47,746 nt of DNA from Stygiobacter sp. (lineage in GTDB: Bacteria; Pseudomonadota; Alphaproteobacteria; Rhodospirillales; Magnetospirillaceae): assembly GCA_006218045.1 (NCBI GenBank), contig VBWB01000036.1, forward strand, positions 1 through 47,746. The letters are read 5' to 3'. Of this stretch, positions 11,492 to 25,947 are shown one piece after another. The notes beneath the pieces are model-generated. The model did no database searches. It was not told the origin of the DNA and worked only from the letters and a program-made list of their open reading frames with translations. Position 1 is the first letter of the stretch, and each line of letters begins with the position of its first letter. Position numbers and translations under genes: made by a program.

Positions 11492-12223
11492 ATGGGCGAC
11501 GAGTACCGCACAGAAAAAGTGTCGCGAACCAGGGATATTCACGAATACGCGCGGGACGGGTATGACGGACAGCGTCGCCATCTGCCGCCCCATGCCTATG
11601 AAAATCCGGTCAAACCCCCGGCGCATACGGCATCGGACGCGGCCCTGGTCCTGGGGTTGCCGGCGGATCGGCTGACCCCGGAAATCCTGGATGCCTTGCA
11701 GCCGCTTTTGGCCGAACTCGAGCGGTTGCGCTGGAAGGCCGAGCAATCCGACCGCCGCCAGACTTGGCTGGAACAGCAATCCGACCGCCATTCCGTCGTT
11801 CCCTGCCTGACCCGGCGGGCCTTCATGCGTGAGCTCGACGCCTATCTGGGCAGCGGCGGGCGTGGCGTGGTCGCCCTGTTGCAGGTGGCTGGAATCGAGG
11901 CGCTTCGGCAATTGCACGGTCTGGCCGCCGGCGAGGGGGCGTTGCGCCATATCTGCGCCAATGTCATCGGTGCCTTGCGCACCACCGACATGGTCGGCTG
12001 TCTGGGCGGATCGGATTTCGCCATTTTGCTGCCCGGCTCCGATTATGCCCATAGCCGCGATAAACTGGATGAAATCGTCGGCCACATGGCGGCGCCGCCC
12101 TTCACCTGGCTGGGCCAGCGCATCCCGTTGCAGCCCGCTTGGGGTTTGCATGTACTCGCGGCCGGCGAGGGGGCGGAACAGGCGGTGGCCGCCGCCGACC
12201 GCCATCGGCGCGGCATGGGCTGA
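11492..12223 (+). CDS. Degenerate GGDEF-domain protein
   Basis: A 243-residue soluble protein. Residues about 1-60 are polar and unstructured, residues 65-95 are helical, and residues about 105-240 have the fold pattern of a GGDEF domain (LTRRAFMRELDAYL, then GEGALRHICANVIGALRTTDMVGCLGG). At the catalytic position the motif is GGSDF instead of GG(D/E)EF. The metal- and substrate-binding acidic pair is therefore altered, and diguanylate cyclase activity is unlikely. It may bind GTP or act as a structural or scaffold protein. The start at 11492 has a GGGGGA ribosome site 5 bases before it. It is divergent from purE. The degenerate motif is seen directly; the role is inferred. Confidence 0.75.
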   Translation: MGDEYRTEKVSRTRDIHEYARDGYDGQRRHLPPHAYENPVKPPAHTASDAALVLGLPADRLTPEILDALQPLLAELERLRWKAEQSDRRQTWLEQQSDRHSVVPCLTRRAFMRELDAYLGSGGRGVVALLQVAGIEALRQLHGLAAGEGALRHICANVIGALRTTDMVGCLGGSDFAILLPGSDYAHSRDKLDEIVGHMAAPPFTWLGQRIPLQPAWGLHVLAAGEGAEQAVAAADRHRRGMG

Positions 12224-12295
12224 TGGCGCCCCCTATCCCTTCATCCCCAAGCCGCGCGGCGCTTGAGCGCGCCCGTTCACGGGCTGGCCTTCAGC

Positions 12296-12333
12296 CCCCC
12301 TATCCCTTCGGCAAAAGCCGAAGGGATAGGGGG
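12296..12333. terminator. 17-bp perfect hairpin shared by the convergent gene ends
   Basis: CCCCCTATCCCTTCGGC (12296-12312), an AAAA loop and its exact complement (12317-12333) form a 17-bp stem. The stem covers the last codons and the stop of the Bcr/CflA gene on the minus strand and can also end plus-strand transcripts from the GGDEF gene. A second copy of one arm, CCCCCTATCCCTTC, lies at 12229-12242, so an alternative pairing is possible. Confidence 0.65.
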
Positions 12334-13478
12334 CCCAAGATCGCGAAACCCAGCATCACCATGGCCATGGGTAGGGCGGAATGGGCGTGCAGCAGGCCGA
12401 CCAGGGCCGAGGCGGCGGCGCCGATGGTGAATTGCAGCATGCCCATCAGGGCGGAGGCGGTGCCGGCGATGGCGCCGCCCCGAGGCGCCATGACCAGCAC
12501 CGATGCGTTGGGGGCGATGAAGCCCATGCAGGCGATGGTGGCGAACAGCGCCGCCGACAGCCCGATCACGCCGGCGAAATCGCTGGCGGCCACCGTCGTC
12601 AAGGCGGCGGCCAGGGCCAGTTGCCCCCATTGCGCCGTCGCCAGCACCTTGTGACGGTCCAGCCCATGCAGCACCCGACCATTGATCTGGCCGGCGATGA
12701 TGAAGCCGAAGGCGTTGGCGGCGAACACCCAACTGAACCGCTCCAGCGGCAGATTGTGGTACTGGATCAAGACGAAGGGCGAGCCCGAGATATAGGTGAA
12801 CAATCCGGCCATGCCGAAACTGCCGGCCAGGGCATAGGCCATGAACGAGCGGTCGGCCAGTAATCGGCCATAGGCGACCAGGGCACCGATGAAGCCTGAA
12901 CGCCGGCGCAGGTGCGGCGGGTGGCTCTCCGCCAGCCAGCGATGCAGCAGCATCAGGCACAGCCCGCCCATGATCGCCTGGGTGGCGAAAATCGAGCGCC
13001 AGCCCAGCAGGCCGATCAACCAGGCTCCGGCCAGCGGGGCGATGATGGGGGCGGCGCCCATGACCAGCATCAGCGTGGCATAGACGCGATGGGTGTCCTG
13101 GGGCGGATAGAGATCACGCACCATGGCGCGACCGATGACGCCGCCGGCACAGGCGCCGATGGCCTGGAAGAAGCGGGCGATGGTGAAGATTTCCACCGAT
13201 GGTGCCGCCATACAGGCCAGCGACGACAGGGTGTGGATGATCAGGCCGGCATATAGCGGCCCCTTGCGGCCCCAACCGTCGGAAATGGGGCCGTAGAGTG
13301 CCGGCCCCAGGGCGAAGCCGGCGAGAAAGGCGGCCAAGGTGATCTGCACCTGGGTGGAACTGGCGGCGAAATCGGTCTGCATCTGCGGCAGTGCCGGCAG
13401 ATACATGTCGATGGCCAGGGGGGCCAGGGCGGTGAAAATGCCCAGGATAATGACTATCAGTCGCGATGGCGCGTGCAT
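12300..13478 (-). CDS. Bcr/CflA-family drug efflux MFS transporter
   Basis: Proton-driven exporter of the major facilitator superfamily in the cytoplasmic membrane. The 392-residue protein has twelve predicted membrane segments. It carries the Bcr/CflA hallmarks: LAPLAIDMYLPALPQMQ in helix 1, the loop 2-3 motif GPISDGWGRKGPLYAGL, and IGACAGGVIGRAMVRDLYP in helix 4 and after. Length is typical. The substrate cannot be told from sequence; related proteins export bicyclomycin, chloramphenicol or sulfonamides. The last eleven codons also form one arm of a terminator-like hairpin. It is convergent with the GGDEF gene and separated by 37 bases from the YdcH gene upstream. Confidence 0.92.
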   Translation of the reverse strand: MHAPSRLIVIILGIFTALAPLAIDMYLPALPQMQTDFAASSTQVQITLAAFLAGFALGPALYGPISDGWGRKGPLYAGLIIHTLSSLACMAAPSVEIFTIARFFQAIGACAGGVIGRAMVRDLYPPQDTHRVYATLMLVMGAAPIIAPLAGAWLIGLLGWRSIFATQAIMGGLCLMLLHRWLAESHPPHLRRRSGFIGALVAYGRLLADRSFMAYALAGSFGMAGLFTYISGSPFVLIQYHNLPLERFSWVFAANAFGFIIAGQINGRVLHGLDRHKVLATAQWGQLALAAALTTVAASDFAGVIGLSAALFATIACMGFIAPNASVLVMAPRGGAIAGTASALMGMLQFTIGAAASALVGLLHAHSALPMAMVMLGFAILGPLSLRLLPKG

Positions 13479-23904: not shown

Positions 23905-24275
23905 GCATGCCTCCCAGGGGTTACCCGCCCGTCCTTCGGCCATGGCGGTCGAGAGCGGTGGGGTTCCTGATGGGGCCATGCGGTTTTCGCAAGGCACCCA
24001 TCTACTTTTGCCGATATTAAGGGCACGGCTGCGAGCGCTTGTCAAACGAGACTTGGCAAAAACGCCGGTTTTTTTCTGCTAGAATCAGTAATGAAACTGT
24101 ACAATTCGTTACAATTGGAAATCTTTTAATAAAGATTAAGGTTAGGAAGAGTGAATTTGAAGAATAATTACATGTTCTAGTGTTGCCGTTGTGTTGTGAT
24201 GATGAAATCAAATCCTTGCTCTGGAAATCGCTTCGGGTGATAGCCATATGTTTGATGCATATGGGGAGGGGGCCC
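23905..24275. promoter_or_regulatory. AT-rich divergent control region between livG and the oxidase-like operon
   Basis: About 370 bases with no convincing gene. From about 24055 to 24260 the composition is clearly AT-richer than the surroundings, with a CAATTCGTTACAATTG near-palindrome around 24101-24117 and several TTTAATAAAG-like stretches. It must hold promoters for livG leftwards and the oxidase-like operon rightwards. I could not fix -35 and -10 boxes with confidence. Confidence 0.5.
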
Positions 24276-25541
24276 TTGTCAGCCAAGTTGATGCATTCGC
24301 AACTAAATAATTTGCGCCTTCTGGAATTGCGCCTGTGGCTGCTTGTTTCACTCGCCGCCCTGGCGGTGGCCGGCGCCTTGGCCCTGGGTTTGGCCTTGGC
24401 GCGAACCCCGGGCGTGCAGGATTGGTTGCCGTCGGGTCCGGATTTTTTCCATAAGGCGCTGGTCACCCATGTGGTGTTTTCCTTCCAGGTCTGGCTGTTG
24501 GCCATGCTGGCGGCGGCCTCGACGCAAGGCCGCGCCGCGCCGCTGCCCGGGCTGGTCGGGGTGGGGCTGACCATCGCCGGCTGTGCCCTTTTGTTGCTGG
24601 TCACCCTGGCCGGTTGGGGCGAGGCGTCGCTCAACAATTATGTGCCGGTGCTCGATCACCCGCTCTATCTGGCCGGCTTGGGGCTGATCGCCGTTGGAAT
24701 CGGCTGCGCCTTGTTGCGCCCCGGCAACGATATGACTGCCATGGCATTTGCCTATGCGGTCGCCCTGATCTGCTTTGCCGTCGCCGTCCTGCGGCTGCCG
24801 TCCGACCTGGATGCGGGCTTCCGCTACGAGCGGCTGTTCTGGGGCGGCGGTCATGTACTGCAATTCGTCAATACCGGCCTGATCATGTGGGCGTGGCGGC
24901 GTCTGGCCGGCGGCGGAGACACCCCGCTGTCCCGTCTGGCCTTCGCCTTGCTGGCGGCGGGAGCGGCGGCGGCCCTGGTCATCGAGTTCCGCCTCGATCC
25001 GCTGGGGCTGTCCTGGCGTCGGGCCTATACGGACATGCTGTGGTATCTGCTGCCGTTGCCGCCGATCGTGTTGGCGGCGGATATGCTGTGGCGTCGCCGC
25101 CGGATGGGGGGCATCGCCGGTATGGCATTATGGACGTCGTGGCTGGTCTTCGCCCTGGGCGGGGTGGCCGGCTTCGCCCTGGGGGCCGGAGATACCCGCA
25201 CCCCCAGCCATTATCACGCCATGATCGGCGGCGTGAACGTGGCGCTGATGGGCGTGATCCATGCGGCATTGTTGCCGACCTTGGGCCGGGCGGTGGCATC
25301 GCTACGCTTGGTGCGCTGGCAGATCGGCCTTTACGGCGGCGGCCAGATGCTGCACGCCCTGGGCTTTTATCTGGCCGGCTTGGCTGGGGTGGCGCGCAAG
25401 ACGGCGGGGGCTGAACAGGGTTTGGACAGCGCCGTCAAACTGGCATCCATGGGGGTGGTGGGGTTGGGCGGCGCCATTGCCGTTCTGGGTGGGGTATTGT
25501 TCGTCGGTCATGTCCTGGCCCGGTTGGTGCGCCATGATTAG
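24276..25541 (+). CDS. Divergent heme-copper oxidase-like subunit I lacking helix VII histidines
   Basis: A 421-residue membrane protein with twelve predicted helices, the core number of heme-copper oxidase subunit I. Conserved positions, counted from the TTG at 24276, are His65 in helix II (ALVTHVVFSF), a low-spin heme ligand position, His193 in helix VI (FWGGGHVLQF) and His312 and His314 in helix X (TPSHYHAMIGG). Aligning RRAY (248-251) with the TRAY after the normal His-His pair puts Glu237-Phe238 at that pair. The Tyr of HPEVY is Phe197. CuB binding and the His-Tyr crosslink are thus absent or altered. It may be a nitric oxide reductase-type or unknown enzyme. The TTG is preferred because GGAGGGGG precedes it; the ATG at 24291 is the alternative. 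It overlaps subunit II by 8 bases. Confidence 0.75.
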   Translation: MSAKLMHSQLNNLRLLELRLWLLVSLAALAVAGALALGLALARTPGVQDWLPSGPDFFHKALVTHVVFSFQVWLLAMLAAASTQGRAAPLPGLVGVGLTIAGCALLLLVTLAGWGEASLNNYVPVLDHPLYLAGLGLIAVGIGCALLRPGNDMTAMAFAYAVALICFAVAVLRLPSDLDAGFRYERLFWGGGHVLQFVNTGLIMWAWRRLAGGGDTPLSRLAFALLAAGAAAALVIEFRLDPLGLSWRRAYTDMLWYLLPLPPIVLAADMLWRRRRMGGIAGMALWTSWLVFALGGVAGFALGAGDTRTPSHYHAMIGGVNVALMGVIHAALLPTLGRAVASLRLVRWQIGLYGGGQMLHALGFYLAGLAGVARKTAGAEQGLDSAVKLASMGVVGLGGAIAVLGGVLFVGHVLARLVRHD

Positions 25542-25947
25542 GGCGCTGCCCATTGCCGCCTTCGCCGTCTTGGCCATGTTCTGGCCCGGCTGGACCGAGC
25601 CGGAGGCGGATATGGGGGAGGCGGTGGAGGCGACGGCCTTCATCGCTCGTGTCCATGCTTATGCCGGCCTTTATAGCGAGGATGCCCCGGCGGGTGAAAT
25701 TCCCATGCTGGCACGTCGGTTCGAGTTCTATCCAGCCGTGCGATTGCAATCAGGGCAAAGCTACCGCCTGTTGCTGATGGCGGAAGATGCGGTGCATTCG
25801 GTGGTGGTGAACGGGCGCGAGATGTTGCTGGTGCCCGGAATGGTGCAGGCGGTCGAGCTCTCGCCGCGACCGGGTGACGTGGTGGAATTGCGCTGCAACG
25901 AATATTGCGGCCTGGGGCACAATCGCATGCGGCTGAGGATTCATTGA
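25534..25947 (+). CDS. Short CuA-type subunit II (cupredoxin)
   Basis: A 137-residue protein with one N-terminal membrane anchor (about 4-17) and a periplasmic cupredoxin domain. The binuclear CuA site is complete: His88 (in EDAVHSVVVNG), Cys121, Glu123, Cys125, His129 and Met132 in RCNEYCGLGHNRM. This most resembles the ba3-type subunit II (CNQYCGLGH) and shows that electrons come from a periplasmic donor such as a c-type cytochrome or cupredoxin. It is much shorter than the usual 220-280 residues and has a single anchor helix. It is translationally coupled to the subunit I-like gene. A terminator follows 38 bases later, so the two genes are the whole operon and no subunit III or assembly gene is included. 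Confidence 0.85.
   Translation: MIRALPIAAFAVLAMFWPGWTEPEADMGEAVEATAFIARVHAYAGLYSEDAPAGEIPMLARRFEFYPAVRLQSGQSYRLLLMAEDAVHSVVVNGREMLLVPGMVQAVELSPRPGDVVELRCNEYCGLGHNRMRLRIH

Follow-up and report, generated by a model that had tools for sequence, protein, structure and literature searches.

Heme-copper oxidoreductases (HCOs) share a common hallmark of their chemistry: three histidines that hold a non-heme metal next to the high-spin heme. Nitric oxide reductases (NORs) keep these three histidines, and in cNOR and qNOR the metal so bound is an iron, FeB. A 2024 survey of NORs reportedly defines newer families of these enzymes. In C-type (cbb3) oxygen reductases, the cross-linked tyrosine comes from helix VII. 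The biogenesis proteins DUF420/CtaM, CtaA, CtaB and SCO have folds unrelated to that of HCOs, and none is known to be an HCO homologue. At the position of the oxidases' cross-linked tyrosine, eNOR carries Gln, cNOR and qNOR carry Glu, and sNOR, gNOR and CuA-NOR carry Asn or Asp, according to the part of PMC8756737 consulted. CtaM, a DUF420 protein, is needed for active aa3 oxidase in Bacillus and Staphylococcus and probably acts at a late step, as described in the consulted part of PMC9145763.

The SubI-SubII locus

The window (the whole 47,746-nt stretch of DNA analyzed) contains two plus-strand open reading frames that overlap by 8 nt. SubI (24276–25541) encodes a predicted CuB-less HCO subunit I of 421 aa, and SubII (25534–25947) encodes a CuA subunit II of 137 aa. 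SubI residues are numbered from the TTG at 24276, which follows a GGGGAG-type Shine–Dalgarno sequence in the window and in all five aligned relatives (L004–L007 and L155); in-frame ATGs at 24255, 24261 and 24291 are possible alternative starts. Upstream lies a plus-strand direct repeat, TACAATTCGT-TACAATTGGA (24100–24119), which is alike in the same five relatives and may, judging from its sequence, be a regulator site. A loose TTG-N8-CAA scan of eight upstream stretches gave no match to an FNR-type box. Sequence features identify the flanking genes as a putative ABC-type transporter group on the minus strand (5′ side) and a putative pyruvate-dehydrogenase-like gene (3′ side). When the window was searched with profiles for DUF420, CtaA, CtaB, SCO, subunit III and the nirS cluster, SubI and SubII were the sole matches; the lack of a subunit III, reported in a first-pass annotation of this DNA, thus held for the window.

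Neither protein scored above the cut-off of any NCBIfam model, and SubI matched Pfam COX1 at E 2.6e-4, under the curated cut-off. Sequence searches found no solved relative of SubI: phmmer returned only an antibody chain (E 0.65), and profile A1 returned nothing. No match among viral structures fell below E 0.16, and plasmids yielded no match. An AlphaFold2 model built from the 11-row alignment A1 had a pLDDT of 86.4 and a pTM of 0.88. Its top Foldseek match was subunit I of Thermus thermophilus ba3 (E 1.5e-7; query TM 0.75); cbb3, aa3 and cNOR came further down the list. By these two methods, SubI has the fold of an HCO subunit I.

The heme sites of SubI are intact. His65 in helix II (24468–24470) aligns with the low-spin heme ligand of the references, and His312-Tyr-His314 in helix X (25209–25217) supplies the high-spin and low-spin heme ligands, respectively. 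These three histidines are present in all 90 family members described below. Arg374-Lys375 in loop XI-XII (25395–25400) occupies the columns of the oxidases' Arg-Arg pair, which we take to serve the heme propionates. The metal site is another matter. In helix VI, His193-Val-Leu-Gln196-Phe197 (24852–24866) retains the sole CuB-type histidine of SubI, and Phe197 stands in the place of the tyrosine that is cross-linked in A- and B-type enzymes, four residues after this histidine. The helix VII columns that hold the His-His copper ligands fall on Ile236-Glu237 (24981–24986) in the reference alignment, although on sequence grounds a shift of one residue is possible. An adjacent His-His pair is absent anywhere in SubI. 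All of these features lie on the plus strand. The three-histidine site of helices VI and VII is thus represented in the window by His193 only, with Glu at 237.

The first-pass annotation had placed the gene pair here and had named His65, His193, Phe197, Glu237, Phe238, His312 and His314, all of which we find in the sequence. It was also right that the helix VII pair is replaced, but it had located the replacement at Glu237-Phe238; alignment with 20 reference rows puts it one residue earlier.

SubII matched Pfam COX2 at E 0.0064, below the curated cut-off. It has one N-terminal hydrophobic stretch, its single anchor, and the full CuA ligand set: His88 (25795–25797, plus strand), invariant in the seven rows of alignment A2, followed by Cys121, Glu123, Cys125, His129 and Met132 in the loop C-N-E-Y-C-G-L-G-H-N-R-M (25894–25929, plus strand). 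SubII resembles the CuA domain of ba3 in sequence (E 1.6e-5), and the fold of its model (pLDDT 81.8) is nearest to that same domain (2cua, E 7.9e-6). SubII therefore has CuA ligands in a cupredoxin fold, and the earlier description of a short, singly anchored subunit with a complete ba3-like CuA site is borne out.

Conservation and phylogeny of the family

Ten relatives, six of them titled Magnetospirillum, came from a first scan of named genomes. With profile A1 at E ≤ 1e-10, matches were found in 204/297 genomes sampled from the order and 61/398 sampled from the phylum. Because an eNOR-like gene can pass the family profile at this threshold, we prefer the counts at E ≤ 1e-40, obtained by striking four weaker matches per sample from the 1e-10 lists: 200/297 and 57/398 genomes, respectively. 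Weak matches at 1e-10 include G284, G169 and G259 in the order and G441, G612 and G652 in the phylum; G065 (order) and G457 (phylum) look like matches through the eNOR-like gene alone. With 200 of 297 order genomes positive, the family is common among the bacteria sampled. For alignment, 112 profile matches were reduced to 93 distinct rows covering more than 380 columns, and then to 90 members by removal of three eNOR-like rows, which keep the His-His pair and score 109–117 bits. Dereplication at 62% left 46 rows.

Nine positions are invariant in all 90 members: His65, Tyr122, Trp189, His193, Gln196, His312, His314, Arg374 and Lys375. Position 197 is Phe in 65/90 and Tyr in 3/90. The first column of the His-His pair is never His (0/90), and SubI has no adjacent pair; as far as tested, then, neither a displaced pair in SubI nor a retained one in its relatives spoke against a remodeled site. 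Because 90 distinct homologues keep this pattern, it reflects more than chance or local decay. Loss of the copper ligands could in principle mark a decaying or non-functional duplicate, yet that reading is contradicted by the nine invariant positions in divergent relatives, by the wide spread of the gene and by its recurring gene order, and we give it almost no credence.

We compared active-site columns of the 46 dereplicated members with those of 10 eNOR-like rows, seven A-group rows, one B-type row and two other rows. Every row compared has the heme ligands, and in the loop XI-XII pair the first Arg is common to all. The His-His pair is present in 20/20 references versus 0/46 family members. 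Four residues after the helix VI histidine, Tyr is found in 7/7 A-group rows and Gln in 10/10 eNOR-like rows, versus Phe in 36/46 members and Tyr in 3/46. The T312/K362-like column of helix VIII is polar (T, H or K) in 18/20 references and nonpolar (V, A, M, L, I or F) in 46/46 members. This column and that of the cross-linked tyrosine presumably belong to the K proton channel, whose polar residues are typical of A- and B-type oxygen reductases; the helix VIII one is missing from all 46 members. With these columns nonpolar or mostly replaced, it is unlikely that the family reduces O2 with protons taken up through the K channel.

Could another metal site have taken over? The second His-His column (position 237) is Y in 43, H in 21, E in 8, F in 7 and another residue in 11 of the 90 members, so that a possible metal ligand (Y, H or E) is present in 72/90. 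In helix XI, 67/93 rows share the histidine seen in SubI as His360. One member, L045, has adjacent histidines in the loop just past the helix VII columns. Another, L103 (8129–9769, plus strand), has three spaced histidines in its helix VII stretch, Phe-His-Ile-His-Val-Ala-His, unlike other members, and from sequence a variant metal site is possible there. The patterns at position 237, in L045, in L103 and at His360 make some other metal site possible. A true NOR or oxidase whose non-heme metal sits on His193, the Glu, Tyr or His at 237 and other ligands would also suit the eNOR-like and nirS gene context of some loci. However, no more than two histidines of the usual trio are left, the type of residue at 237 varies, and the K channel is lost; we consider this reading very unlikely.

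The invariance of His193 despite the loss of its CuB partners invites a different explanation, in which it is the sixth ligand of a bis-His second heme and the complex serves diheme-CuA electron transfer, or redox or NO sensing, with no catalysis. The repeat-like C-terminal extensions of two members, L110 and L111, would fit such a role, but by inspection no fused signaling domain was noticed in most members. We judge such a role unlikely. The extensions themselves, in L110 (5313–7196, minus strand) and L111 (6273–9221, minus strand), span ∼160–185 residues and look tetratricopeptide-repeat-like by eye.

Two trees were built with A, B and eNOR-like references; C-type, cNOR, qNOR, verified sNOR, gNOR, nNOR and bNOR sequences lie outside both. 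The first had 68 rows (46 members, the distant relative L180 and 21 others). The second had 64 rows after removal of the long branches L112, L176, L178 and L180, and its bootstrap was not fully settled. Also outside both trees are L003 (same genome as the window), L002, L169–L171, L175, L177, L179, L181 and near-copies. The family forms a separate clade at 100/100 in the first tree, and again without the four long-branch rows; its branch in the second tree measures 1.53 changes per site. Nine oxidase rows (the A group, one B-type and L184) cluster together, as do ten eNOR-like rows. The family is split from the nine oxidase rows, the one B-type included, at 100/100, and in neither tree does it fall within the oxidase or eNOR-like groups. 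Together with the missing His-His pair and Phe197, this agrees with the earlier proposal of a remodeled active site that does not fit a normal oxygen reductase. Two very distant sequences have long branches: L180 (1179–2531, minus strand), which is not among the 90 and lacks the invariant Gln (His-Ile-Tyr-Val), and L112 (8977–10212, minus strand), which keeps it.

Within the family, the second tree resolves two clades, one of 27 order rows and one of 18 rows that come mostly from other classes. By profile search, 31/90 members have a CuA subunit gene immediately downstream, with the motif C-x3-C-x3-H-x2-M in 31/31; because this profile was made from sequences that bear the motif, it may overlook degenerate copies. 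The search found no directly downstream CuA gene for 59/90 members; of the 90 loci, 80 offer 600 nt or more of downstream sequence and 10 offer less. It found none in L008 or L011, which are closely related to the window gene. All nine CuA-linked tree rows sit in the 27-row order clade. CuA presence requires four to five changes on the tree, indicating repeated gain or loss of the link. The two-gene arrangement noted at first pass thus holds for the window and is not universal.

Gene neighborhoods and co-occurrence

DUF420, CtaB or CtaA genes lie within 1.5 kb of 30/46 dereplicated members and 39/90 overall, with many of the 90 loci having a flank of 1.5 kb or less. The arrangement DUF420-SubI-(SubII)-CtaB recurs, often next to an aa3 operon; a Pfam search of L012 bore out the identity of DUF420. 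Across the order, DUF420 was found in 193/204 gene-positive versus 5/93 gene-negative genomes at E ≤ 1e-10 (192/200 versus 6/97 at E ≤ 1e-40), and CtaA in 192/204 versus 58/93, figures that ignore shared ancestry. Outside the order, 24 of the 37 gene-positive genomes tested (59 in total) have DUF420, and CtaA is a neighbor in several loci of other classes. In L107–L109 (family f66), a CtaA-type gene directly follows the CuB-less gene, and one or two cytochrome b561 genes lie upstream on the opposite strand. The window copy of SubI-SubII is beside neither nirS, an eNOR-like operon nor heme-synthesis genes. DUF420 and CtaB occur together on another contig of the same genome, without SubI, which suggests that SubI-SubII moved away.

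These associations, and the presence of another HCO, speak either for provision of the heme O/A that the complex itself would use or for a function in oxidase biogenesis. The protein might be a biogenesis factor, a subunit I paralogue that, with DUF420/CtaM, passes hemes to, or redox-conditions, the nascent aa3 or eNOR-like enzyme. The gene order in many order loci, the CtaA neighbors in other classes and the co-occurrence with DUF420 and CtaA are as expected for such a factor. Consistent with this, another HCO was detected by PF00115 in 24/26 genomes tested, and CtaM is required late in aa3 assembly, according to the consulted part of PMC9145763. Yet two of the 26 genomes, G280 (97% complete) and G136 (79%), gave no PF00115 match at E 1e-10. 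Moreover, the 58 order genomes that have CtaA without the family gene indicate that the gene is not generally required. The intact-motif CuA subunit of 31/90 members and the heme sites kept in 90/90 also count against a biogenesis factor, and on balance we hold this role possible but less likely than not.

A second set of neighbors points to NO respiration. Within the genus, nirS lies within ∼2.1 kb of the family gene in 7 of the 10 gene-positive genomes for which the gene's place is listed (an eleventh is unlisted), and Crp/Fnr-type regulators stand between the two in the loci viewed. The nirS product has a clear cytochrome d1 domain (E 1.9e-150). In L007, a member of the ethylbenzene-dehydrogenase heme family (EB_dh; 11814–12917) is encoded between NirT and a NirE-type methylase in the nir cluster. 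A universal link to nirS is ruled out: in the taxonomic family of the window's genome, nirS is missing from 15/44 gene-positive genomes and present in 5/11 gene-negative ones.

A strong eNOR-like gene was found in 17/55 genomes of that taxonomic family and 20/150 phylum-sample genomes, and all 37 also have the CuB-less gene. Of the 17, 14 have both genes within ∼4 kb of each other. The eNOR-like copies read have His-Ser-Ser-Gln-Gln in helix VI and retain the His-His pair. In eNOR-like operons of L013 (3250–4851), L073 (10791–12362) and L097 (10357–14419), genes for a cytochrome b fused with 4Fe-4S and FlpD-like domains separate the CuB-less gene from the eNOR-like ones; the assignment was made by Pfam on the L013 copy and by clustering for the other two.

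The association of the family with NO is one of genome context only (nirS and the eNOR-like operon). The first-pass annotation had raised a NOR-like reaction, but since NORs keep three histidines on the non-heme metal, such a mechanism lacks support on structural grounds.

Proposed function and comparison with known systems

The CuA subunit, the kept heme sites and the nirS and eNOR-like neighbors speak for a cytochrome-c-linked redox enzyme. We envisage a membrane complex of HCO fold that would have lost the His-His part of CuB and the K proton channel and kept CuA and both heme sites. Electrons would pass from a periplasmic cytochrome c to CuA in SubII, then to the low-spin heme (His65/His314), and from there to the second heme (His312). 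The distal pocket of the second heme would be lined by His193, Gln196 and, mostly, Glu, Tyr or His at 237 instead of copper. This copper-free heme would act on a small ligand such as NO or peroxide, with any protons drawn from the periplasm. With neither copper nor K channel, no four-electron O2 reduction or proton pumping by the K route is expected. Our observations cover the gene context, clade, ligand pattern, predicted fold and sequence; heme content, absence of the metal, direction of electron flow and substrate of SubI-SubII are all predictions from them. Further, as 59/90 members have no CuA gene directly downstream, the cytochrome c route need not apply to all of them.

We thus tentatively favor, at only a little short of an even chance, a cytochrome-c-linked, CuB-less CuA/diheme complex that serves heme-O/A oxidases and NO respiration as an auxiliary redox enzyme. 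For the family at large it is possible, with confidence appreciably short of even, that the copper-free heme performs a reaction new to the superfamily, either NO or peroxide handling or heme transfer, that aids heme-A/O and NO respiration. That the family is an ordinary oxygen reductase or a known NOR is unlikely.

No CuB-less HCO family is described in the consulted parts of PMC8756737, PMC11388526, PMC9145763, PMC10715153, PMC4013037, PMC6431628, PMC8239418, PMC12808453, PMC12774639, PMC4065386, PMC12569097 or PMC11707229. The earlier suggestion of an undescribed family thus appears correct, provisionally so, as the survey of newer NOR families (doi 10.1073/pnas.2316422121) lies outside the literature searched. 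If our reading is right, a conserved CuB-less family with CuA and both heme sites would reveal what the second metal is needed for. Some members score high enough to pass PF00115, the general oxidase model, and genome surveys may therefore count them as oxidases. In addition, the steady company of DUF420/CtaM offers a handle on the role of that assembly factor.

How does the family compare with known systems? With DUF420/CtaM, CtaA, CtaB and SCO it has gene neighborhoods in common. With cNOR, qNOR, sNOR, gNOR, nNOR and bNOR it shares the membrane HCO fold and, in some loci, an NO context; the metal ligands that define those enzymes are missing from the family. SubI has neither the three-histidine FeB site nor the Glu of cNOR and qNOR, as the His-His pair is absent and Phe197 holds the Tyr position. 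At the residue level, Phe197 also differs from the Asn or Asp of sNOR, gNOR and CuA-NOR; an unverified row, L176, has Asn there. The eNOR-like enzymes are the top-scoring other HCO sequences with the family profile (80–124 bits) and have in common with it the Trp, the His and the Gln at +3 of helix VI. Unlike the family, they keep the His-His pair, Gln at +4 and polar K-channel columns, and they group apart in the tree; SubI has Phe197 where eNOR has Gln. The B-family ba3 of T. thermophilus resembles the SubI-SubII complex in fold, in heme ligands, in the Tyr133- and Trp229-like columns and in its short CuA subunit II. Compared with ba3, SubI is without the His-His pair and the cross-linked Tyr, its K-channel columns are nonpolar, it is ∼130 residues shorter, and in the tree its family stands apart from the single B-type sequence.
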